DNA from: an uncultured Flavobacteriales bacterium
GTDB taxonomy: Bacteria > Bacteroidota > Bacteroidia > Flavobacteriales_G > Salibacteraceae
Direction of reading: 5' to 3'
Assembly (NCBI GenBank): GCA_937899835.1
Contig: CALCCE010000023.1
Location: forward strand, 1-64,000
Length of the DNA stretch: 64,000 nucleotides
Below are positions 24,373-36,860 of this stretch, one piece after another (position 1 is the stretch's first letter; every line of letters starts with the position of its first letter). The notes beneath the pieces are model-generated. The model did no database searches, was not told the DNA's origin, and saw only the letters and a program-made list of their open reading frames with translations. The position numbers were made by a program, and so were the translations under genes.

Positions 24373-25035
24373 AAAGGATAATTATGGTTTAACTGGAACA
24401 ATTGATTTACAATCCAAATTCCCGATTACGGAACGACCAACGAGCAATGGTGCGAAGACAGGCCGGTTCAAAAACCTATCATCTGGTCCACCAATACATC
24501 AACAAGTTGTCATGATAAGCCAGGGCTCGTGAGTACAGCATGCCTTCAAATGAAGCTCGTGGAAAGGACATTTTTGTAACACGGCGGGACACAATTTACG
24601 TCCACCTACCGGCTCAGAACCAAGGGAAAATCGCCGAATCTTGAGTGGCTACCCCTGCCCTTCAGCGTAAAATGAAATAGAAAGGAAAAAGTCGGAGGCG
24701 AATTCGTCTAAACTGGGAACGAATCTGACCTTAAAAATCAAAAACTGATCGACAAGTGTTCAAAATCAATCCAAGTGAAATTTAGATACGAAAACAGCCC
24801 TTTCTTGGAAGGCTAATTGCAAGCATTGTATCTTTTCAACAATTTCAAGGTCTTGTTTAAACACGAATAAAAATCAATTATAGGATAAAACCCATTCAAA
24901 ATAGACTCTCCATGGAAACCACTATTGATTTCCTATTATTCATTTTTCATCTTCCTTTGTGCAACAAATACCCTATATAGGGGCTATTGGAAATGTATTT
25001 GTTAGGCAGTAAATTGCGATTCAAAATCTACATTT
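24373..25035. other. 663-base intergenic region, A+T-rich, with one perfect palindrome
   Basis: No coding pattern is seen on either strand. It must hold the minus-strand promoter of the giant surface-protein gene and the plus-strand promoter of the DUF6958-like gene. A perfect 12-base palindrome, CCCTATATAGGG, lies at 24971-24982, about 54 bases before the latter start, and could be an operator. Confidence 0.5.
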
Positions 25036-25335
25036 ATGAGTACCGAACCCCGAATCATGACCCTTCATCCGCAGGGAAAAGCTGGTGTAAACATCCTCTT
25101 AAGAAGGTATGAACAGGTAAAAACTGTTCTTCTGGAAATCGTTTCAGAAACCAACCCTATTCCTTTCGACTCCCTGACCGACAAAGCCGAAGAACGCCTA
25201 AAAACAGAAAAGTTTGATGGCAAACCGCTTTGGTATATTGTTTCAGTCAAATTAGACCTGGAGGCACGCGGAATTCTGAAACGTGTTCCCAAAACCAGTC
25301 CGCACCAACTCCGATTGACGCAAGTAGAAGATTGA
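25036..25335 (+). CDS. DUF6958-like small protein
   Basis: The 99-residue product contains 'LHPQGKAGVNILLRRYEQVK', 'FDSLTDKAEERLK', 'FDGKPLWYIVSVKLDLEARG' and ends 'SPHQLRLTQVED'. This layout resembles, from memory, the DUF6958 family of Bacteroidota; the helical pattern with a final 'VKLDLEARGILKR' looks like a small winged-helix domain, so a regulatory role is possible. The DNA at its 3' end and just downstream is repeated at 33.45-33.59 kb. TACATTTA, a near -7 box, lies too close to the start to be a normal promoter. Confidence 0.75.
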   Translation: MSTEPRIMTLHPQGKAGVNILLRRYEQVKTVLLEIVSETNPIPFDSLTDKAEERLKTEKFDGKPLWYIVSVKLDLEARGILKRVPKTSPHQLRLTQVED

Positions 25336-25430
25336 GCGTAATTTTTTTTACTACCCAAAGCAGAATTCCTGCTTCCAAGGCATTGAATGCGTTCAGTCTT
25401 TTGTGGTCGAGTGCCGCAATTGGTATTGAA
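25298..25430 (+). repeat. Direct repeat copy A (partner at 33451-33591)
   Basis: Starts inside the last 13 codons of the DUF6958-like gene and runs into the spacer before the hybrid regulator. Shared blocks with copy B in the same order include GTCCRCACCAACTYCGRTTG, TTTTT..CT.CCCAAAG, ATTCC, GCAYTGAA, CTTTT.TG.GGT and TGCCG.AA.TGGT.TTGAA. About two thirds of positions agree by eye. The opposite strand stays open in both copies and also conserves a short 'GILLW' reading. Confidence 0.7.
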
Positions 25431-25670
25431 TTCATCATTTGCTACCCCTATTTTACACCCTTCCTTAACACCCTGATATCGCAATCCATAAATCAAAACT
25501 CAAGTTCTGCTTATTAATGAAGCAGCGACTCATCGCGTTACTTCTTATCTATGGTGCACCAGGATCAAAAAGGATCATCTGGCAATGCCCTTAAAATGGC
25601 TTCTATTGACTGTTCTGTGGACTTGAACACCAACTTGATGCTTGCACGCATGCACCTTAATCTAACCTTC

Positions 25671-28600
25671 ATGCCCTTGTTTGTATTACCTCAATCTGCT
25701 CGGCGGTGGGGCCTTCACCCCACTTCTACCCTATTAAAATGCGAGCTTATCGTGCTGCTATTGCTCCTGATTGCGGTGCACACCTATGGAAATACTACAC
25801 CCATCTACTCCCGTGCCCAACTCCGCACCTGCGAACAGCAATTCAGAACCGCCACCAACGAAAAAGAGCGCATTGCCCAATGGATACACCTCGCCACATA
25901 CTACAACAGATTCAACTGCGATACCGCGGCCATGTACGGGCAGCAGATGATGGATTATGGCAAGGAAACCGGAAACGAATGGCTATACCACAAGGGCTGG
26001 TATTGCCGGCTGAATGCTCAGAAAGAGTTGAAACCACTACAGGAAGTTTATCCTAAGGTAGAAGCGTGCTTCCAATGGTTTACCAAACATGGGTACAAGT
26101 ACGATGCCTTGCTGTGCCGCCTCATTCTTAACGATTGTGGAAATTCCCTTTATGGCGCTAGCAGCATTCAACAGTTGCTGGGTGAGCAATTAGCAGAGGC
26201 GCGAGATTTCAATGATGCCATGTTGATGGCTGAAATTTGGAATAGTATCGGTACTACGAAACCCTATCATGAAAACTCAAAATACGCTCCATCGCCGATG
26301 GATTCAGCCGCGTTTTACTTTGAGTTGTGCGGAGATTCTGCAAGAGCATTAAAGGCTCAGGCATTCAATTTGTACCCGAAAATGGGATCGCCTGAAATGC
26401 TTCGGTTTACCCGGATGGTACTGACGAAAAGCAAAGCGTGGGGAAATAGTAGTCTTATGAGCTTTGCTCACTCCTTCCTGGGAGTAGCGTTTATTGCAAA
26501 AAGAATGCAAGATTCTGCGCTTTACCATATCGACAAGTCGGCTCTGTATGCGCAGCAAAGAGGAAGTGTCTTTCAAAAGCTAATGGCCTCTTACACAAAA
26601 ACGTATTACTACCTACAAAACAATAGGCACCAAGAGGGCCTTGATCTGAACCGTCATTTGATTGAACAAACCGGATTCTATGGTATTAAAAGGATGAAAT
26701 TGATCCACCTATTGCACCTTGTCCTTCATCACAGCAAAAGGCATGAATATGAGTCTGCTATCCAAGCAGCGACACAATTACTCACCTTATCCAGGCAGCT
26801 GGATGATCGACACCATACTTTCCAGGGCCAAATTAAGCTAGCAAATCTTTACCGTGAAACCGCTAGTTTCCAAGAGGCAAAAGCCATTTACAAGTCCGCC
26901 TTACCGTGGATTAAAGAAACCTACGAGGGCAAGATCCGAAACAGGCTGTTGTGTGATGTCTATTCCGAATTTGCAAAAACACAAATCGCTAACGATTCTT
27001 TAATGCAAGCCAGGATACTCCTCGGCAAATCCCTTGAGCACATCAAGGATCAGCCAGGGCATATCATTTCAAAGATGCAGCTGCAGCTCATGGAGGTCCT
27101 TGTTGATCTTGGAGATATACAACAAGCAGATAGCATTTACCAGGCACAGGTCAACCGGTATGGAGAGAAGCAACTCAAGCAATGGCATCCGAGCTATCAT
27201 TCCGTTGCAGGTAGATTGTTCATCGCACTTAAATCCTACGATAAGGGGGTTAAATACCTCGAAACCGCTACTGCAAAAAGCTTGTCTGATTACAGCAAAC
27301 GGCAGCAAAAATCCTACTTCGATTTGAGCAAGGGTTACGAAGCGCTGGGAAAGAATGATCAGGCGCTGGATGCCTACCGCAAATATTCAGAAATCAAAGA
27401 CAGTCTCACCTTTGGGCAGTCTGTGGCCAATGTAGTCAAGCTCCAAAAGGCCTATGAGCTGTCGCAAAAGCAACAAACAATAGACAACCTGGAACAACAA
27501 AAGCAGTTTGACGACCTGCAACTTTCCCAACAAGAAGGACTACTGAAGCTGCGCCAGGCCTGGATCATCATCTTAGTGATTACTGCGCTGTTGGTACTCA
27601 CTTCAGCCGGTTTGTTTTACCGAAGGCTCAATCAGCGAAAAGAAAAGGAAAAATACCAGCTTGAAATTCAAGCCCTGGAGGCCCGTCAGGAAAATGAATT
27701 GTTACAGGCCAAAAATGCTCTTTTTGAGAATGTTTCCCACGAATTTCGCACCCCACTTACCCTGATTCAGATTCCGCTCATGCGCCATCGTGAACAGATA
27801 CCTGCAACGGAGCGGCCTTTGTTTGACAACGTCCTTAGAAACGTAGATGAACTGTTGCTTTTGGTGAATGACCTGTTGCAAGTGGATTCCACGGTGGATG
27901 CGAAAGTAAAGCTGGACAAACAGCCCTTTGACCTGGTGCACCTGCTGAGGGAATTGGAGGGAATGTTTGCTTCATTGTTTGATAGTAAACATATAGCGGT
28001 TTATTGGGAGTTGGCCGGAGACCTTGGTCAATTGCATGCGGATGAGAAAAAAGTGCGTATGGTGATGAACAACCTACTTAAAAATGCTTTCGCACACACT
28101 CCTGCCAACGGAAAGGTCAAAGTAGAAGCCAGGGTGGTTTCGCAATCGGATGGGGCGAAGCTTTTTGTGAGTGTATACAATACCGGAGCACCGATTTCCA
28201 ACACGCACCTCAATCATGTTTTTGACCGATTTTACCGGGGAGAAAACCCACGGTACACCGGGAGTGGGATCGGACTTGGATTGAGCAAAGAAGTGGTGGA
28301 AGCACACGATGGCAACATCGGGGTGTCCAACGATGAACAAGGCGTTCTGTTTTACTTCACCATCCCAGGAATCACCGCTCAGGTGACCACCTTTGAGAAA
28401 GACGTGGAGTCCCCAATGCCTTTGATAACCGACCAGGAGACCAAAGCCGGATTGCCTTCGCTTCTAATCGTAGAAGACAACATTGAAATCATGCAAATGC
28501 TGACCGACCTTTTTGCCGAGACCTACCACGTTTTGCATGCCTATAATGGAGCAGAAGGCTACAAGATAGCGCATTCGAAACAGCCGTCCCTCATCCTGAG

Positions 28601-29213
28601 TGACATCATGATGCCCGTGAAAAACGGCTTTGAACTGTTGCAGGAGCTAAAGTCCAACCTGGCAACCAGCCATATACCCGTGGTACTGCTCACCGCAAAA
28701 GGCGATGCGGCAAGCAAGGTTAAGGGACTGGAATTTGACGCAGATGCCTACCTGGCAAAGCCTTTTCACCCAGATGTGCTGCAAGCGACACTCACCAACA
28801 TCCGCAGGCAGCGAAAGCGGTTGCAGGAGCAGTTTATTCAAAATCCAATGTTGTCACTGGATGAGTTTAACTGCACGCCCAAAGATGCCTTGTTCATTAA
28901 GAAAGCCAGGAAAATCCTCGAAAAACATTACCAAAATGAGGAATTAACCGTAGAGGAATTTTGCTCCGCTCTGGCATTGAACCGCAACAGTGTACACAAT
29001 AAGCTCAAAGCATTTACAGGTGAAAACACCTCCTATTTTATTCGCAATTACCGGCTGGAAAAAGCGGTGAAACTACTTTCGGAAACTGACCAGTCCATCA
29101 CCGAGGTATGGATGTCCACCGGATTTAAAAGTGCCCAGGTTTTCTCCAAAGCATTCAAAAACAAGTTTAAACTATCTCCTTCGCAGTACCGATCGCGCTT
29201 AACCCCTTCCTGA
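25671..29213 (+). CDS. Hybrid two-component system regulator (TPR / kinase / receiver / AraC)
   Basis: The 1180-residue inner-membrane protein has an N-terminal hydrophobic export signal ('CELIVLLLLLIAVHTYG'), a periplasmic TPR-rich sensor (about 60-620), a membrane helix (about 629-650), a histidine kinase with H690 ('NVSHEFRTPLTL') and 'GSGIGLGLSKEVVEAHDG', a receiver with D978 ('LILSDIMMPVKNGFELL') and lysine in 'AYLAKPF', and a C-terminal AraC helix-turn-helix ('ITEVWMSTGFKSAQVFSKAF', 'LSPSQYRSRL'). It therefore senses, phosphorylates itself and binds DNA as one chain. The start is uncertain: 25551 is also in frame, but its extra 40 residues do not look like protein. Likely targets are the two secreted propeller genes that follow. 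Confidence 0.9.
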   Translation: MPLFVLPQSARRWGLHPTSTLLKCELIVLLLLLIAVHTYGNTTPIYSRAQLRTCEQQFRTATNEKERIAQWIHLATYYNRFNCDTAAMYGQQMMDYGKETGNEWLYHKGWYCRLNAQKELKPLQEVYPKVEACFQWFTKHGYKYDALLCRLILNDCGNSLYGASSIQQLLGEQLAEARDFNDAMLMAEIWNSIGTTKPYHENSKYAPSPMDSAAFYFELCGDSARALKAQAFNLYPKMGSPEMLRFTRMVLTKSKAWGNSSLMSFAHSFLGVAFIAKRMQDSALYHIDKSALYAQQRGSVFQKLMASYTKTYYYLQNNRHQEGLDLNRHLIEQTGFYGIKRMKLIHLLHLVLHHSKRHEYESAIQAATQLLTLSRQLDDRHHTFQGQIKLANLYRETASFQEAKAIYKSALPWIKETYEGKIRNRLLCDVYSEFAKTQIANDSLMQARILLGKSLEHIKDQPGHIISKMQLQLMEVLVDLGDIQQADSIYQAQVNRYGEKQLKQWHPSYHSVAGRLFIALKSYDKGVKYLETATAKSLSDYSKRQQKSYFDLSKGYEALGKNDQALDAYRKYSEIKDSLTFGQSVANVVKLQKAYELSQKQQTIDNLEQQKQFDDLQLSQQEGLLKLRQAWIIILVITALLVLTSAGLFYRRLNQRKEKEKYQLEIQALEARQENELLQAKNALFENVSHEFRTPLTLIQIPLMRHREQIPATERPLFDNVLRNVDELLLLVNDLLQVDSTVDAKVKLDKQPFDLVHLLRELEGMFASLFDSKHIAVYWELAGDLGQLHADEKKVRMVMNNLLKNAFAHTPANGKVKVEARVVSQSDGAKLFVSVYNTGAPISNTHLNHVFDRFYRGENPRYTGSGIGLGLSKEVVEAHDGNIGVSNDEQGVLFYFTIPGITAQVTTFEKDVESPMPLITDQETKAGLPSLLIVEDNIEIMQMLTDLFAETYHVLHAYNGAEGYKIAHSKQPSLILSDIMMPVKNGFELLQELKSNLATSHIPVVLLTAKGDAASKVKGLEFDADAYLAKPFHPDVLQATLTNIRRQRKRLQEQFIQNPMLSLDEFNCTPKDALFIKKARKILEKHYQNEELTVEEFCSALALNRNSVHNKLKAFTGENTSYFIRNYRLEKAVKLLSETDQSITEVWMSTGFKSAQVFSKAFKNKFKLSPSQYRSRLTPS

Positions 29214-29236
29214 GAGCCCATAATCGTCGATAAATG

Positions 29237-29267
29237 ACATGTCATTAACCAAAAGATACATGTCATT
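29237..29267 (+). promoter_or_regulatory. Two 10-base direct repeats spaced 21 bases, probable AraC-type binding site
   Basis: ACATGTCATT occurs at 29237-29246 and again at 29258-29267, a centre-to-centre spacing of exactly 21 bases (two helical turns), the geometry AraC proteins use. The first copy sits in the perfect palindrome ATGACATGTCAT. The site lies 24 bases after the hybrid regulator gene and about 190 bases before the first secreted propeller gene. Confidence 0.55.
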
Positions 29268-29457
29268 CAACCTTTTTCCATCGGTTCATTGATCATTGCT
29301 TTCGCCTCTTTTCGGGTGCTGAGCGGTTCTTGGCGACACCTACCGTATGTATGCCTTGAGGCAGGTATCGTTCTACTCAGCTTTTCCTTAGAGACGGCAC
29401 CCTTTATTGCGGAAGCCGAAAAGCAAGCAGAGTAGGCAGCTATATTCTTTCATCCTC

Positions 29458-31167
29458 ATGAGAAACACTTCTATTTTAATCGTGTGCCTCTTGATTGGGC
29501 AGTTGGGCTTTGGGCAAAACACAATTGTTCATTTCGAGCCCAACCCCTTGAATGGCACGACACCAAGGCCGACCACCTATGCCGGTCAAACAGAAATCAT
29601 TGAATTATCTACTAACGGTGCTGAATATGCGACTGTAGGCACGGCTACGTTCAATCAAAACTCATATTCTAATCCTGTGGTTGGGCAATTTGACATTGTA
29701 AATACACATTGGTGGCTCCATGAAATCAAAATTCCGGGAACCGACCGGCTGAACGGTATGCAGTTGTGTGTTGGAGATAACGAGGAAATCTTTGTGGGTG
29801 CAATGGATTATCAGACTGTTACACAAACACTCCACAAATACCTGATCAAACTCGACCCTCAGGGTAATCCGTTGTGGGCCATAGACCTTGGGCCAGGGAA
29901 TATAAGAAGCATGATTTATGACCAACACGATAACAAAGTGATTGTGCATGGGGATCAGGATAATCGACTCTACCTTGCCAGTATTGATGGCTCCAATGGC
30001 GCATTAGAATGGGGGTTTACTTACAGTGGAAACCCGGTAGACGCTCAACACATTGCAGGCCAAGTGCTTCTTGATCCTGCAGACGAAGAGTTGGTGATGA
30101 TCGGTACGGGAGTCAATAGCAATGGAGGGCGAGATATCCTTGCCTTTAAAATTGAGCGGAATTCGGGTCAGGTGATCTGGGACAGACGTTACAGACGTTC
30201 ATTTGTTAATGCCCAAGAGTCTGCTATTTCTGCTTGTTTCCATCCAGGTGCCAATGGAAACCACTCCTTGACACTGGTTGGCCGGGCGCACAACAATTCC
30301 GTACTTACCCTGAATATTAATCCCGACACAAACCCTGCTGTGAGTGGAATAATCAATTGGCAGACCCTACACCGTGCTTCAGGTTGGATCTTTGATGTTC
30401 AGAAAAGTGCCTATAATCCTATCAGTGATCGACTTTTTGTAGCGGGTGGAGCCCGCGATGGTGGTGGGTACAGCCAAGGACTCCTCATGCCCATTGATCC
30501 AACGAATGGACAAGGCATGGGAACATTTGGAACTTGGGGCACTAGCGTTGCTCAAGTTGCGTTTCCAAATGATGGCAACTGTATATTCAGGGATATTGAT
30601 GTACACTCAGGCCTTTACAATGGGGCCATGCGATTAACCGGGAATGCACTGATGAGCAATAATGCCGCAACCGGTGAGAACCCAGCATTATGGTCGGTAA
30701 ACGTGAATTCGCAAGGAGTCGACCAAGAGGTACTCTGCACCCAAACTGTGCCCTTTACTACGAAGCAATTCAATATGTTCGAAGGTGATGGAGTTACTCA
30801 AATTGATCTTCCAATTCCTCCGTTCGTCCCGGTGAGTATTTCACCAATAAATGGGCCCTCAGTCAATGATTGTCATATTATAGGAATAAATCGACAAAAT
30901 CTGGCAGACCTTCCCCAAGAAGCAGAAATCATCGATTTTAACGTTTTTCCCAATCCAGCTTCAGAAACGCTGACCGTTCAGCTGACTGAGGTTTCGAAAG
31001 ATACGCGGGTCCTTTTACGAGATGCCTCAGGGAGGTTAGTAGATGCTCCTGTGTTGCGCAACAAGCAAGGTTTTATCCTCAACGTTAGGAACCTGTCCAG
31101 CGGTATGTACTTCCTACAAGTGAACAGCACAGATACACACTATTCACAGAAAGTAGTGATTGATTAA
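29458..31167 (+). CDS. Secreted T9SS-sorted propeller-like protein, copy 1
   Basis: The 569-residue protein starts MRNTSILIVCLLIGQLGFGQ (signal peptide); an upstream in-frame ATG at 29407 adds 17 unrelated residues. The body has repeated strand patterns of a quinoprotein/SBBP-like propeller ('YLIKLDPQGNPLWAIDLG', 'LYLASIDGSNGALEWGFTY', 'LAFKIERNSGQVIWDRRY'). The C-terminus is a T9SS type-A sorting domain ('NVFPNPASETLTVQLTE' to 'SSGMYFLQVN'). It is a clear paralogue of the next gene over the full length. It follows the hybrid regulator and a candidate binding site. Function unknown; it could bind or display a ligand at the cell surface. Confidence 0.88.
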   Translation: MRNTSILIVCLLIGQLGFGQNTIVHFEPNPLNGTTPRPTTYAGQTEIIELSTNGAEYATVGTATFNQNSYSNPVVGQFDIVNTHWWLHEIKIPGTDRLNGMQLCVGDNEEIFVGAMDYQTVTQTLHKYLIKLDPQGNPLWAIDLGPGNIRSMIYDQHDNKVIVHGDQDNRLYLASIDGSNGALEWGFTYSGNPVDAQHIAGQVLLDPADEELVMIGTGVNSNGGRDILAFKIERNSGQVIWDRRYRRSFVNAQESAISACFHPGANGNHSLTLVGRAHNNSVLTLNINPDTNPAVSGIINWQTLHRASGWIFDVQKSAYNPISDRLFVAGGARDGGGYSQGLLMPIDPTNGQGMGTFGTWGTSVAQVAFPNDGNCIFRDIDVHSGLYNGAMRLTGNALMSNNAATGENPALWSVNVNSQGVDQEVLCTQTVPFTTKQFNMFEGDGVTQIDLPIPPFVPVSISPINGPSVNDCHIIGINRQNLADLPQEAEIIDFNVFPNPASETLTVQLTEVSKDTRVLLRDASGRLVDAPVLRNKQGFILNVRNLSSGMYFLQVNSTDTHYSQKVVID

Positions 31168-31462
31168 GCTGAAAATATCGGCCTCTCACCCATTTGGCGA
31201 ATCAACCTGAGTCTCTTTTTCCTTATTTGAAATCGAGGTTCAGGTTTGTTCCTTCTCCATCCCTATTACACCAACTTCAACTCCATCTTCTGCTGTGGAG
31301 CAATCTGCGCGGTTTAACCTTCATTGTCCTCCTAAAAACACCTTATAATCAGGCAGTAGATATAAACAGCGCGGTGTTTTCGTCGGCTACACTAAGAGGT
31401 TGTACCTTATGTTGCAGAAGCCGAAAAGCATCCGGAGCAGGTAGCTTTATCAATTCATTTTC
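31168..31462 (+). other. 295-base spacer with partly duplicated leader
   Basis: The last 75 bases before the second propeller gene resemble the same stretch before the first (shared GC.GAAGCCGAAAAGCA, GTAGCT or GCAGCT, TTTCAT.CTCATGA). The duplication therefore included the leader. The ACATGTCATT repeats seen before copy 1 are absent here, so copy 2 may depend on read-through. Confidence 0.5.
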
Positions 31463-33172
31463 ATGAAAAACGCTTCTATTTTACTCGTATTCCTCTTGTT
31501 GGGGCAGTTGAGTTTTGGGCAATTGACCTTTGCCAATCAAATTGCCCATTTTGTTCCCAATCCCATCGTGAGTGGTACACCTTGGCCTACCACCTATGGA
31601 GGTCAAACTGAAATCATTGAATCCTCCCCGGGACCGATCTATCGCACAGTAGGCACGGCTACGGATGATATTACCGGTGGATCTAATCCTGTGGTAGGAG
31701 CATTTGATCCGGGGTTTGGCCATTCATGGCTCCATAAGATCCTTATTCCGGGAACGGACTTGCTGAACGGCATGCAATTGTGCATTGGAAACAATGAGGA
31801 GGTCTTTGTTGGGGCGATGGACTATCAGACTGCTACGCAAACGCTACACAAATACCTGATCAAGCTCGACTCCCAGGGCAATCCGCTATGGGCCCTTGAT
31901 CTTGGCCCAGGGACGATAAGGAGCATGATTTATGACAACATCGATTATAAGGTGATGGTGCATGGCGAGCAGGATAACCAGCTTTACCTTTCTAGCATTG
32001 ATGCCACCAGTGGCGCAATGGACTGGGGGTTTACCTACAGTGGTACCCCCGTGGATAATCGACACATAGCGGGTGAAGTGCTCATCGATCCGGCAGACGA
32101 GCAGCTGGTGATGGTAGGCACAGGAGTGGACGGCAATGGTCGAAGCGATATTTTGGTATTTAAAATTGACCGGACTACAGGTATTGCAGATTGGGGCAGA
32201 CGCTACAAGCGTCAGGCTCCTGTTTTTAATGAATCGGCCATAGCAGCCTGTTTCCACCCTGGCATGAACGGCATGCCTTCACTGACCATCGTTGGTCGAA
32301 CAACAAATAATGTTGTGCTGACCTTGAATATCAATCCAGCCACCACATTGAACGGACCTGGAATAATCAATTGGCAGAGAAGACATCGATCACCCAGCTG
32401 GACATTCAACGTTCAACGGATTGCTTATAACCCCATCAGCAAGAAGCTCTTTGTAGTTGGTGGAGCTCGTTCAACCGGTGGGTTTAGTCAAGGTTTTGTG
32501 ATGCCCATAGATCCCGCCAGTGGACAAGGCCTTGGGACGTTTGGAGTGTGGGCTACCAGCTATTCGCAGACTTCTTTTCCTGGTGATGGTGACTGCATTT
32601 TCAGAGACATCGACGTGCATTCACAGACCTATGCAGGAGAAATGAGATTGACCGGAAATGCGCTCCTGAGCAATAATTCAGTATCGGGCGCGAATCCTGG
32701 ACTATGGTTTGCAGGCGCTACCTTAGACGGTATTGATGATGAAGCTGGTTGCGCAAATCAAGTGCCGTTTACGACCATGAACTACAACATGAACTTCATT
32801 GATGGTAAAAATCAAATTGACCTGCCTATTCCGCCCTTTGTTCCTGTATATATTGCCGCGATGAATGCACCAACACTTGACGACTGTAGCTACTCTTTTA
32901 GGTACCATCAGGATAACCCCCTACCCAAAGAGAGCGTTGTGTTCAACGTCTATCCCAATCCCACCTCAGAAAAACTGACCATTCAAATGGCCGAGGTGCC
33001 GGATGATTTGCAGGTTGTCTTAATGGACGCCTTCGGCAAGTTGGTAACCGTTCCTGTAGTGCGAAACGAACAGGGGTTTACCGTTGATGTCAGCAACCTG
33101 AGCAGTGGCGTTTATTTTTTGCATTCAAACGGTGTAGAAACACGCTTTACACAAAAAGTCTTGGTTGAATAA
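31463..33172 (+). CDS. Secreted T9SS-sorted propeller-like protein, copy 2
   Basis: Also 569 residues, starting MKNASILLVFLLLGQLSFGQ. It aligns with copy 1 end to end ('LLNGMQLCIGNNEEVFVGAM', 'NPLWALDLGPGTIRSMIYD', 'GQGLGTFGVWATS', 'CIFRDIDVHSQTY'). The T9SS sorting domain is intact ('NVYPNPTSEKLTIQMAE' to 'SSGVYFLHSN'). Divergence is moderate and without stop codons, so both copies appear functional. The N-terminal 60 residues and the region before the sorting domain are the most variable. A large hairpin follows the stop. Confidence 0.88.
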   Translation: MKNASILLVFLLLGQLSFGQLTFANQIAHFVPNPIVSGTPWPTTYGGQTEIIESSPGPIYRTVGTATDDITGGSNPVVGAFDPGFGHSWLHKILIPGTDLLNGMQLCIGNNEEVFVGAMDYQTATQTLHKYLIKLDSQGNPLWALDLGPGTIRSMIYDNIDYKVMVHGEQDNQLYLSSIDATSGAMDWGFTYSGTPVDNRHIAGEVLIDPADEQLVMVGTGVDGNGRSDILVFKIDRTTGIADWGRRYKRQAPVFNESAIAACFHPGMNGMPSLTIVGRTTNNVVLTLNINPATTLNGPGIINWQRRHRSPSWTFNVQRIAYNPISKKLFVVGGARSTGGFSQGFVMPIDPASGQGLGTFGVWATSYSQTSFPGDGDCIFRDIDVHSQTYAGEMRLTGNALLSNNSVSGANPGLWFAGATLDGIDDEAGCANQVPFTTMNYNMNFIDGKNQIDLPIPPFVPVYIAAMNAPTLDDCSYSFRYHQDNPLPKESVVFNVYPNPTSEKLTIQMAEVPDDLQVVLMDAFGKLVTVPVVRNEQGFTVDVSNLSSGVYFLHSNGVETRFTQKVLVE

Positions 33173-33207
33173 GAAACCCGACAAACGGAGTTAGTTCGAT
33201 TCGCACC

Positions 33208-33249
33208 GAAGCCTGAATTTCCCGCCAAAAGCGGTGAGGTTCAGGCTTC
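33208..33249 (+). terminator. Long hairpin after propeller copy 2
   Basis: GAAGCCTGAA pairs perfectly with TTCAGGCTTC, enclosing an inner CCGC / GCGG stem. There is no T-run, so it may be a factor-dependent terminator or an RNA-stabilising structure. Confidence 0.5.
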
Positions 33250-33450
33250 CTTACTATGATGCAGTTTTACGACCGTACAACCTGTGCGCTGAAACCTGCC
33301 ACAATTACACGAAAGCAACACCAAGTGGCAGCATGGTATACAACATACTTAGGCACGACCAGAGCGTTGGTCTCACCAATGATGTATCTACGAAGGAAGG
33401 CGGATTGAATCGATTTTCAATCATGGTTGATAACTTTCCAGGACCGGTAT

Positions 33451-33591
33451 GTCCACACCAACTTCGGTTGGGCCCAACAAAGGTTTAACGAAAATTTTTC
33501 TTCTTCCCAAAGAAGGATTCCAACGTTTAAGGTTTCCAAGCACTGAACAACTCTATGCTTTTTGCGGTTGAATGCCGTAACTGGTGTTGAA
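33451..33591 (+). repeat. Direct repeat copy B with remnant of a DUF6958-like 3' end
   Basis: Matches copy A at 25298-25430 in the same orientation. The first codons still read PHQLRL in the same frame as the intact gene, with only synonymous differences (CCG/CCA, CTC/CTT, CGA/CGG). The upstream open frame (from 33234) does not otherwise resemble DUF6958, so this looks like the decayed tail of a second copy. The rest of the spacer 33173-33651 holds the hairpin at 33208 and no other recognisable feature. Confidence 0.6.
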
Positions 33592-33651
33592 CAGGCCATT
33601 TTCTATCCCTGTTCGATAGCCTTACATTTGTGTGCTGATCTTGAAAGCCTT

Positions 33652-36135
33652 ATGTCCCAGATTTCTACCTTCTTCTCGTTGAAGAAGTTATACTTCACGT
33701 TGCTTCTTTTTGTGGGATGCTTGTGTTCGATGGCCCAGCCTGGTCAAGGTGGTCCTCCGGGCAGACAACGGCCTTCCTTTCAAGTAAGCGGTCAGGTAAC
33801 CGATGCGTCCGATCAACTCCTCCCCTACGCCAATGTGGTTTTTTACCGCCTGCGCGACAGCAGTCTGGCACTCGGTGGTGCCACGGACGAAACCGGAAAA
33901 TTTGATCTTAAGGTGCCTGCGGGAATGTATTACGTAGAGGTTTCCTTTCTTTCTTTGGAATCTACCTTAATTCCTAAAATTATGGTAAGAGGTGGCCCCC
34001 AAGACTTGGGTACGGTGGTTTTAAAAGCCAAAGCCTCTACTTTGAATGAAGTAACCGTGGTGGCCGAAAAGAGCGATGTGGAATTGCAGGTGGACAAGCG
34101 GGTGTTCAACGTTGGCAAAGACTTGCAAAATGCCGGGGGAAGTGCCGCCGAAATGCTGGACAATTTGCCTTCCATAGAGGTGGACCCCGATGGCAATGTG
34201 GCGTTGCGAGGGAGTCAAAACGTGCGTATTTTAATCAACGGCAAACCATCGGGACTCATCGGGACCAGCCCAGCGGATGCCCTGCGCCAATTGCCTGCAG
34301 AATTGATTGAAAAGGTGGAAATCATCACCAACCCTTCCGCCCGCTATGAGGCCGAAGGCGAGGTAGGCATCATCAATATTGTGATGCGCAAAAACGACCA
34401 ACCCGGCACCAACGGCTCCATTTCGATCAACGGAGGCTATCCTGAACAAGCCGGAGTGGCACTCAATTTCAACTTTCGAAAAAAGCGGATCAATTGGTTT
34501 GTAGGAGGTGGCGTCAACTACCGAAATCAACCTGGTACAGGAGAATCATTTCAACGCTTTTTCGCCGATTCCATTTTTTCTTACGAACGTGACAGGGAAC
34601 ACTTGCGTGGTGGATTTAGTGGCAACCTGAGGGCTGGAGCGGATATCGACCTGCACCGCTTTCACTCCATCACTATTTCCGGGCGTTCGCGTATTTCCAG
34701 GGGAGACAACGAATCTGTTTTGCGCTACCGGGATTTTGATGCCAACCGGTTTTTGATTGCTGAAACCATTCGTGATGAAACCGAAATCGACAACGGTGAA
34801 ACCTGGGAAATGGCTTTTAATTACACCCGCACCTTTCCCAAGAAAGACCGCAAGTGGACCACCGACATTACATACACCTATGGCACGGATATCGAAACAG
34901 GTGATTTAACGGAAACCCGCCGATTTTTTGGCCCTCCTCCTTCAGTGCCGCCAAGGCCGCCCTTGCAACAGCTTACTGACAACGACACCTACGACCAGCG
35001 TTGGTTGTTCCAGAGCGATTACATCCACCCCTTGTCAAAAGGTTGGTTGGTAGAAAGTGGTGTTCGGTATTCTTTCCGGGAACTCGACAATGACTTCCTG
35101 GTATCGATACGGCAACCCGACGGTGATTTTGCCCCCCTGCCGGCTTTTGACAACCGATTTATCTATTCGGAGCACATTTATGCCGGCTACCTTCAAATGA
35201 AAAAGGAGTGGGACAAGTTGGGTTTACAATTTGGTCTGCGGGGCGAGTATACAGATATCGGTATTGAGATCGAAGCCAGTGAACCGGTAAATCCTAAAGA
35301 GTATTTCAATTGGTTTCCCAGTGCCAACCTTTCCTACAAACTAAGCCCAACCCAAAGTGTACAATTCAGCTACAGCAGAAGGATAAGCCGACCGCGATAC
35401 CGCAACCTACTGCCCTTTTTTAGCTACAGCGACAACCGTAATTTCTTTTCTGGTAATCCTGACTTGGATCCTGAATTTACCCAATCGCTGGAAGCAACTT
35501 GGCTGCGCAGATGGCCCAAAGGCACCCTGCTCAGCAGTGTTTATTACCGCTATCGCACCGATGTGTTCCAACGGGTCTCTACGGCGGACACTAACGGCTT
35601 TATCTCTACTTTTCCTATCAACATCGGCACTCAGGATGCTTATGGGTTAGAATGGACCACCTCTTATTCGATCAAACGCTGGTGGCGCATCAGTGGCAAT
35701 GCCAATTTCTTTCGGGCCATTACCCAGGGAGAATTCGAAGGCACTTCTTTGGATGCCGATGCTTTTACCTGGACTACGCGTTTTAATTCCAGGTGGAGCT
35801 ACCACAAAAAGAACAACTTTCAGGCGTCCTGGCTCTACCGTGCACCCCGAGAAACGCCTCAGGGGCGTTCGTTGTCGTTATGGTCCCTGGACCTCTCGCT
35901 TTCGCGTGAATTGTTGAAGGGAAAAGGAACCTTGAGTGCCAACGTAAGGGACCTTTTCAATACCCGCAAACGGCGTAGCATCACCGAAACCGACCGTTTT
36001 TATTCTGAGTCTGAATTTCAGTGGCGCACCCGCCAGTTTCGGCTGAGTTTCACCTATCGCATCAACCAGCAAAACCGCAAGCGAAGTGGCAATAGTAATC
36101 GTTCTTCGCAAAGCTGGGGCGATGAAGAGTTTTGA
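33652..36135 (+). CDS. TonB-dependent receptor / outer-membrane beta-barrel family protein
   Basis: The 827-residue protein begins MSQISTFFSLKKLYFTLLLF (signal peptide ending 'CSMAQ'), followed by a Gly/Pro/Arg-rich linker, a carboxypeptidase-regulatory-like beta sandwich ('VSGQVTDASDQLLPYANVVF', about 45-125), a plug ('AAEMLDNLPSIEVDPDGNV', 'VRILINGKPSGL', 'EKVEIITNPSARYEAEGEVG') and a 22-strand-type barrel of the PF14905 kind. An in-frame ATG at 33562 would add 30 residues with no signal character. The barrel ends in a basic Ser/Asn-rich tail ('NRKRSGNSNRSSQ'), unusual because barrels normally end in an aromatic residue; here the final residues are 'WGDEEF'. Substrate unknown. Confidence 0.92.
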   Translation: MSQISTFFSLKKLYFTLLLFVGCLCSMAQPGQGGPPGRQRPSFQVSGQVTDASDQLLPYANVVFYRLRDSSLALGGATDETGKFDLKVPAGMYYVEVSFLSLESTLIPKIMVRGGPQDLGTVVLKAKASTLNEVTVVAEKSDVELQVDKRVFNVGKDLQNAGGSAAEMLDNLPSIEVDPDGNVALRGSQNVRILINGKPSGLIGTSPADALRQLPAELIEKVEIITNPSARYEAEGEVGIINIVMRKNDQPGTNGSISINGGYPEQAGVALNFNFRKKRINWFVGGGVNYRNQPGTGESFQRFFADSIFSYERDREHLRGGFSGNLRAGADIDLHRFHSITISGRSRISRGDNESVLRYRDFDANRFLIAETIRDETEIDNGETWEMAFNYTRTFPKKDRKWTTDITYTYGTDIETGDLTETRRFFGPPPSVPPRPPLQQLTDNDTYDQRWLFQSDYIHPLSKGWLVESGVRYSFRELDNDFLVSIRQPDGDFAPLPAFDNRFIYSEHIYAGYLQMKKEWDKLGLQFGLRGEYTDIGIEIEASEPVNPKEYFNWFPSANLSYKLSPTQSVQFSYSRRISRPRYRNLLPFFSYSDNRNFFSGNPDLDPEFTQSLEATWLRRWPKGTLLSSVYYRYRTDVFQRVSTADTNGFISTFPINIGTQDAYGLEWTTSYSIKRWWRISGNANFFRAITQGEFEGTSLDADAFTWTTRFNSRWSYHKKNNFQASWLYRAPRETPQGRSLSLWSLDLSLSRELLKGKGTLSANVRDLFNTRKRRSITETDRFYSESEFQWRTRQFRLSFTYRINQQNRKRSGNSNRSSQSWGDEEF

Positions 36136-36137
36136 TA

Positions 36138-36860
36138 TCAAACGGCTTTTACCAAAATCTTTTCTACTGATTCAAACATCTGCCGGAAGGAGCGAATCTC
36201 TACATAAGTTTCCTGCACCACATCATTGCGAAAAGGCCTTTGCATCACACTTTCACGGTCATAAGCTACTACTGGAATTTCCGGTTGTAGCGCACGTGAA
36301 GCTTCTTTGAAGGAGGAACACAAGCCTGCGCCATAAACCTTTCGTTCTCCTTCTTCTTGCATCACGCCAAATTCGATGGTAAACCAGTAGAGCCGTTGCA
36401 GTGCAATCACTCTTTCCGAAGTGGTGGCAGCACACCCCAAAACTCCAAACCACTCCATGAATCGTCGGTAATCTTCATTCAGCAACAGCGGAATGTGACC
36501 AAAAATATCGTGAAACATGTCGGGCTCTTCCAGGTAATCCAACTGCTGGCGGCTACGTACCCAGGTTGAGGAGCAAAACTTGCGTTGGCTCAATAAGGCA
36601 AAGAATTTTTCAACCGGAATCAAACCGGGAACAATTTCAATCTGCCAGCCGGTTCTCATGGCCAAAAAAGCATTGAGCACTTTCAGGTTGGGCAAGTCGT
36701 GAGGGTGCAGTACCGGTTCCATGGCCTTCAAACAGCTCAAATATTCGGAGCAGGCTTTGTCTTGAAGGTTCTCCAATTGCCGGGTAAAAAGTGTATTCCA
36801 AACCCAGCGGTCTTCTTCAGTGTAGCGGTCAAAGTGTTGTTCCATGGTAAAAAAAGACAT
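36138..36860 (-). CDS. phhA: Phenylalanine 4-monooxygenase
   Basis: The 240-residue enzyme hydroxylates phenylalanine to tyrosine using tetrahydropterin and a non-haem iron. The iron ligands are visible: H117 and H122 in 'PDMFHDIFGHIPLL' and E163 in 'WFTIEFG'. Other family marks are 'RTGWQIEIVPGLIP' and 'YGAGLCSSFKE'. No regulatory ACT domain is present, as in other bacterial forms. The start at 36860 (MSFFTMEQHF) is chosen; 36845 (MEQHF) is also possible, and 36923 would translate through a hairpin. It converges with the outer-membrane barrel gene two bases away. A terminator-like hairpin abuts the start codon (36861-36889). Confidence 0.95.
   Translation of the reverse strand: MSFFTMEQHFDRYTEEDRWVWNTLFTRQLENLQDKACSEYLSCLKAMEPVLHPHDLPNLKVLNAFLAMRTGWQIEIVPGLIPVEKFFALLSQRKFCSSTWVRSRQQLDYLEEPDMFHDIFGHIPLLLNEDYRRFMEWFGVLGCAATTSERVIALQRLYWFTIEFGVMQEEGERKVYGAGLCSSFKEASRALQPEIPVVAYDRESVMQRPFRNDVVQETYVEIRSFRQMFESVEKILVKAV

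Follow-up and report, generated by a model that had tools for sequence, protein, structure and literature searches.

Does a short sequence repeated just 3′ of a regulator gene mark the site at which that regulator acts? The window (the whole 64,000-nt stretch of DNA that was analysed) contains two perfect copies of ACATGTCATT on the + strand (29237–29246 and 29258–29267), the second starting 21 bp 3′ of the start of the first. Both lie within the 245-base spacer (29214–29458) between the gene of a hybrid two-component regulator (HTCS) and that of a predicted secreted β-propeller protein, as a sequence-only reading of this DNA had described. On both strands of the window ACATGTCATT had three matches, against 0.24 expected from shuffles; the third (29233–29242, − strand), an addition to that reading, arises because copy 1 sits inside a perfect 14-bp palindrome (AATGACATGTCATT, 29233–29246). 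When the spacer was dinucleotide-shuffled 20,000 times, a perfect run of at least 10 appeared at period 21 in 3 shuffles and at periods 20–22 in 12. The earlier reading had named a genome search for further pairs at 21-base spacing as one check, and frequent recurrence of the pair as evidence against it. With up to three mismatches, the ACATGTCATT pair at exact spacing was found at one place in the 6.9-Mb genome (its own shifted reverse complement aside), so that the reading was not refuted. A genome-wide regulon of ACATGTCATT sites was rejected, as the genome holds one pair only. Neither a recognisable Bacteroidetes −33/−7 promoter 3′ of the repeat nor a plasmid match for 25000–36200 was found.

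The HTCS gene (25551–29213, + strand) encodes 1220 aa as called, the true start being tentative. Pfam and the translation gave an N-terminal hydrophobic segment, a TPR sensor, a transmembrane segment and then HisKA, HATPase_c, REC and HTH_18 domains in one protein, bearing out its description as an AraC-type hybrid regulator. The N-terminal periplasmic sensor of an HTCS is usually COG3292; here TPR repeats were found instead (hydrophobic segments judged by eye). In the REC domain the sequence TSHIPVVLL was found, agreeing with the S/CHIP motif of the α3-β4 loop that is given as a mark of AraC-type HTCS in the available text of PMC11253607. Among 13 window proteins scanned there was a TonB/OMP_b-brl_3 receptor but no SusD, and thus no SusC/SusD pair of a polysaccharide-utilisation locus beside the HTCS gene. 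Just 5′ of the HTCS gene lies a DUF6958 gene (25036–25335) of uncharacterised function. This gene and the HTCS start region (25042–25558) have a decayed homologous copy at 33205–33721, before the TonB receptor gene (score 157, against at most 72 in 100 shuffles), and GGTYGARTGCCGYAAYTGGTRTTGAA, the core of this homology, occurred at these two places only in the genome.

On the other side of the repeat, the presumed target gene (29458–31167, + strand) encodes propeller protein 1; its start was placed at the ATG at 29458, the mechanical open reading frame opening at a TTG at 29407. The earlier description of it as a secreted propeller was supported at the level of fold, while Pfam detected a T9SS sorting tail only. 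The AlphaFold model had a mean pLDDT of 56.5 (about 80 in its best part) and Foldseek found YncE propeller matches (E values of the best three chains between 5.5e-7 and 8.4e-7, with TMt about 0.70), so the predicted β-propeller fold is held with modest confidence. A paralogue, propeller 2 (31463–33172, + strand), was 63% identical and also carried a T9SS sorting tail. As had been claimed, it lacks the repeat: no half-site with up to two mismatches was present in 31168–31463. Full-length propeller relatives outside the genome itself were absent from the 199 genomes searched, the matches listed in the other 198 spanning little beyond the sorting tail, and a further scan of the genome contigs for relatives found none. 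A third relative, 31% identical, lies on another contig of the same genome (C178, locus L072, 479–1990). Footprinting on orthologous loci failed, since no orthologous propeller locus was found.

Between the repeat and propeller 1 lies a DUF805b RNA leader (RF02914; 29406–29438, + strand), which the sequence-only reading had missed. It scored 40.1 bits, passing the Rfam gathering threshold of 35.6, is separate from the repeat and ends 19 nt before the ATG; the function of the family is uncharacterised, and a literature search found no paper on this RNA. Before propeller 2 a DUF805b-like, decayed remnant (31414–31429, + strand) scored 15.2 bits, below threshold.

According to the available text of Ravcheev et al. 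(2013, PMC3878776), every one of the 16 HTCS motifs predicted for Bacteroides is a direct repeat, and the distance averages 21 bp. Repeats beside HTCS genes were counted afresh, the published motifs being unused, as 12-mers that matched in 10 or more of their 12 positions at a given period within 300 nt 3′ of the HTCS stop. Period 21 was found downstream in 15 of 71 loci from the same genome and its relatives (mean over 48 periods 1.56, next best 5) and in 18 of 75 loci of an independent GTDB set (mean of other periods 1.89, next best 6). After leaving out the window locus and removing short-period repeats, the counts were 13/70 and 16/75. Poisson comparison of the downstream counts gave 9e-12 (relatives) and 2e-12 (GTDB), values that serve as guides because loci that share a genome are only partly independent of each other. 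The GTDB counts came from 80 fetched loci, of which 75 (downstream) and 72 (upstream) were counted, the others being of insufficient length or having no open frame. The G012_5061 locus and several more have an internal stop, so that their downstream region may be offset. Upstream of the HTCS gene, period 21 occurred in 13/71 relatives' loci versus 3/72 GTDB loci (one of the three a run of N), and the enrichment therefore holds in both sets downstream only. CDS controls also showed period 21 (5 and 3 of 71 in the relatives' set, 2/80 in the GTDB set), so the signal may be coding-like in part, yet these controls lay far below the downstream counts. The fresh counts extend the 21-bp rule, as a rule of predicted sites, from Bacteroides to many Bacteroidota.

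The repeat of the window also resembled the other downstream sites in its core. ACAT was present on the + strand in both copies at 8 of the 33 period-21 sites, window included (7 of the other 32), and ATGT at 2 of the 33 (1 of the other 32). ACAT ranked among the most frequent 4-mers common to both copies at the 32 other sites. As ACAT is commoner than ATGT, the ACATG of the window has the common core in the common orientation.

The best HTCS match outside the genome lay in another genus of the same family (genome G003, contig C20), with 32% identity over query residues 88–1215 and 49% in the REC-HTH part. ALNRNSVHNKLKA, taken to include recognition helix 1 (the helix label is our own reading), was identical in the two proteins. 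Its 3′ flank contained ATGACAGCGGTTTCA and ATGACAGCAGTTTCA spaced 21 bp, with ATGACA in common with the window, and downstream were an above-threshold DUF805b element and the gene of a protein of 1024 residues that matched the DUF5122 propeller and carried a T9SS tail. The two loci are alike in having a TPR-type HTCS, a 21-bp repeat, a DUF805b leader and a T9SS propeller in the same order. They differ in that the G003 site forms no hairpin, the propellers are weakly similar and the half-site is on the other strand: ATGACA is on the + strand in G003, whereas in the window it is carried by both copies on the − strand only, and by copy 1 alone on the + strand. Within the window's own genome, ALNRNSVHNKLKA was present in a paralogue on contig C299, but no comparable repeat followed it directly, and the four other HTCS genes had no equally good repeat right downstream (best 10/12, at contig C164). 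More HTCS sharing this recognition helix were sought among the 80 GTDB loci kept and none was found. The paralogue at C164 (L105) has about four ACATGT-like repeats (GCAACATGTTAG, 2607–2675) 20–21 bp apart around its 5′ end, perhaps for autoregulation. In a pattern search, 3 of 151 HTCS genes (the window, contig C47 of the same genome and G003 C20) had a + strand DUF805b-like element no more than 2 kb downstream; all three are in the window's family, which supplied 19 of the 151.

Since the repeat is real and its spacing is found beside many such regulators, it is most likely the predicted landing site of the regulator itself. The proposal of the sequence-only reading that the regulator binds here is supported by the 21-bp enrichment downstream of HTCS genes in two sets and by the G003 parallel, and we regard the tandem ACATGTCATT pair as the probable operator of the HTCS whose gene directly precedes it. 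The ACAT core in the common orientation and the array at C164 speak for this too. Speaking against it are the equally possible reading as an inverted repeat with a good RNA fold, the absence of an orthologous locus among the genomes searched, the strand of ATGACA relative to G003, the upstream enrichment that did not recur in the GTDB set, the poorer repeats right downstream of the other HTCS genes of the genome and the lack of a recognisable promoter. The repeat and its spacing, the domain composition of the HTCS, the leader and the rule for the class are all directly established, and from them we infer a model comprising a signal, binding, a promoter and activation rather than repression. 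The signal would be perceived by the N-terminal, presumably periplasmic TPR region, and the kinase would phosphorylate the receiver domain within the same HTCS. A dimer would then place two AraC-type DNA-binding domains on one helix face, two turns (21 bp) apart. The bound HTCS would activate transcription of the first propeller gene, and the transcript would run through the 5′ leader with its DUF805b element.

Such an operator would most likely be a familiar type of site in new surroundings. As in the Bacteroides operators described in the available text of PMC3878776, an AraC-type HTCS gene is accompanied by a pair of direct repeats spaced about 21 bp. Those operators are described there as preceding SusC/SusD polysaccharide-utilisation genes, whereas here the gene that follows encodes a T9SS-secreted propeller and has a DUF805b leader; the TPR-type sensor and the partly palindromic half-site are further differences from the systems described. 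A hybrid regulator that stands apart from polysaccharide utilisation thus gains a concrete candidate operator, and the locus hints at a regulatory setting in which the uncharacterised DUF805b RNA may take part.

Because copy 1 is part of a palindrome, the pair can also be read as a 10-bp hairpin, which the sequence-only reading had overlooked. AATGACATGT (29233–29242) would pair with ACATGTCATT (29258–29267) to form a perfect 10-bp stem with a 15-nt loop (29233–29267, + strand), and the direct repeat would be a consequence of the palindromic core. The RNA could then act as a weak terminator or as a stem that stabilises the 3′ end of the HTCS mRNA, a role that its position 20 nt 3′ of the HTCS stop would suit. 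The predicted fold had −11.3 kcal/mol (z −3.37; 1 of 200 shuffles equally good), and inverted repeats of at least 8 bp were present within the first 120 nt of 21 of 145 HTCS 3′ flanks. However, only 3 of the 10 stem pairs are G-C and a T5 run comes 5 nt beyond the stem, in place of the G+C-rich stem and immediate T run of an intrinsic terminator, and a terminator scan (loop limit 8) did not list the site. The hairpin would also make the exact spacing of 21 a coincidence. Of the 33 period-21 sites, just 4 (window included) had inverted arms of at least 7, and the G003 counterpart did not fold (z +1.20), indicating that the direct-repeat reading is better supported; a hairpin as the function of this DNA is unlikely, though it is the chief rival to the operator.

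This DNA could conceivably serve instead as the operator of a different regulator, such as a LytTR-type protein or a dimeric repressor that binds AATGACATGTCATT. LytTR sites, too, are tandem repeats about 21 bp apart. The 14-bp palindrome is perfect, the genome encodes many response-regulator or AraC-like proteins (89 matches to a REC-HTH query), and a DUF805b gene elsewhere in the genome (L115) follows a LytS/LytTR-like pair, as judged by eye. Yet the adjacent regulator is AraC-type. In the 6.9-Mb genome AATGACATGTCATT had no further copy with 0 or 1 mismatch, which argues against a multi-site regulon, and with up to two mismatches it had 9 places per strand, versus 23 for the reversed control. 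An operator of some other regulator is accordingly quite improbable. That the repeat is a functionless product of chance is hardly credible: 22 of 2,000 spacer shuffles did contain a perfect 10-mer repeat with a period anywhere between 10 and 60, but period 21 was as rare as given above for the 20,000 shuffles, and it is the very period enriched beside HTCS genes.

DUF805b had 19 matches in the window's own genome and was present in 35 of 60 genomes searched. The sample comprised 79 sites (L115–L133 and L223–L282), i.e. the 19 from this genome and 60 from a longer list, mostly the strongest. Upstream sequence of sufficient length was available for 78 of them, and 15 of these 78 had an upstream period-21 repeat (at least 10/12; mean 1.56, next best 4), a count that includes L115, whose repeat lies in a coding region. 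When the two sites linked to an HTCS were excluded, the 35–75 nt upstream of the element showed a base identity of 0.304 at period 21, versus 0.262 at other periods (z 4.4). Tandem 21-bp repeats were over-represented at this distance upstream of DUF805b leaders generally, also where no HTCS was nearby; some of the repeats may resemble LytTR sites. No fixed promoter just upstream of the element was seen in the 78 aligned sites.

These upstream repeats are a lead, not a mechanistic result. The exported-protein genes of the family may carry a two-layer cassette, a tandem 21-bp two-component operator followed by a DUF805b leader, with DUF805b leaders in general, and not just the HTCS-linked ones, having an operator at a preferred upstream place; we put this forward tentatively and hold it to be somewhat doubtful. 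If tandem operators do stand upstream of DUF805b in general, the element would single out a set of transcripts governed by two-component systems, with an RNA step still uncharacterised. By a crude count, 51 of 72 proteins encoded downstream of DUF805b had a hydrophobic N-terminus.
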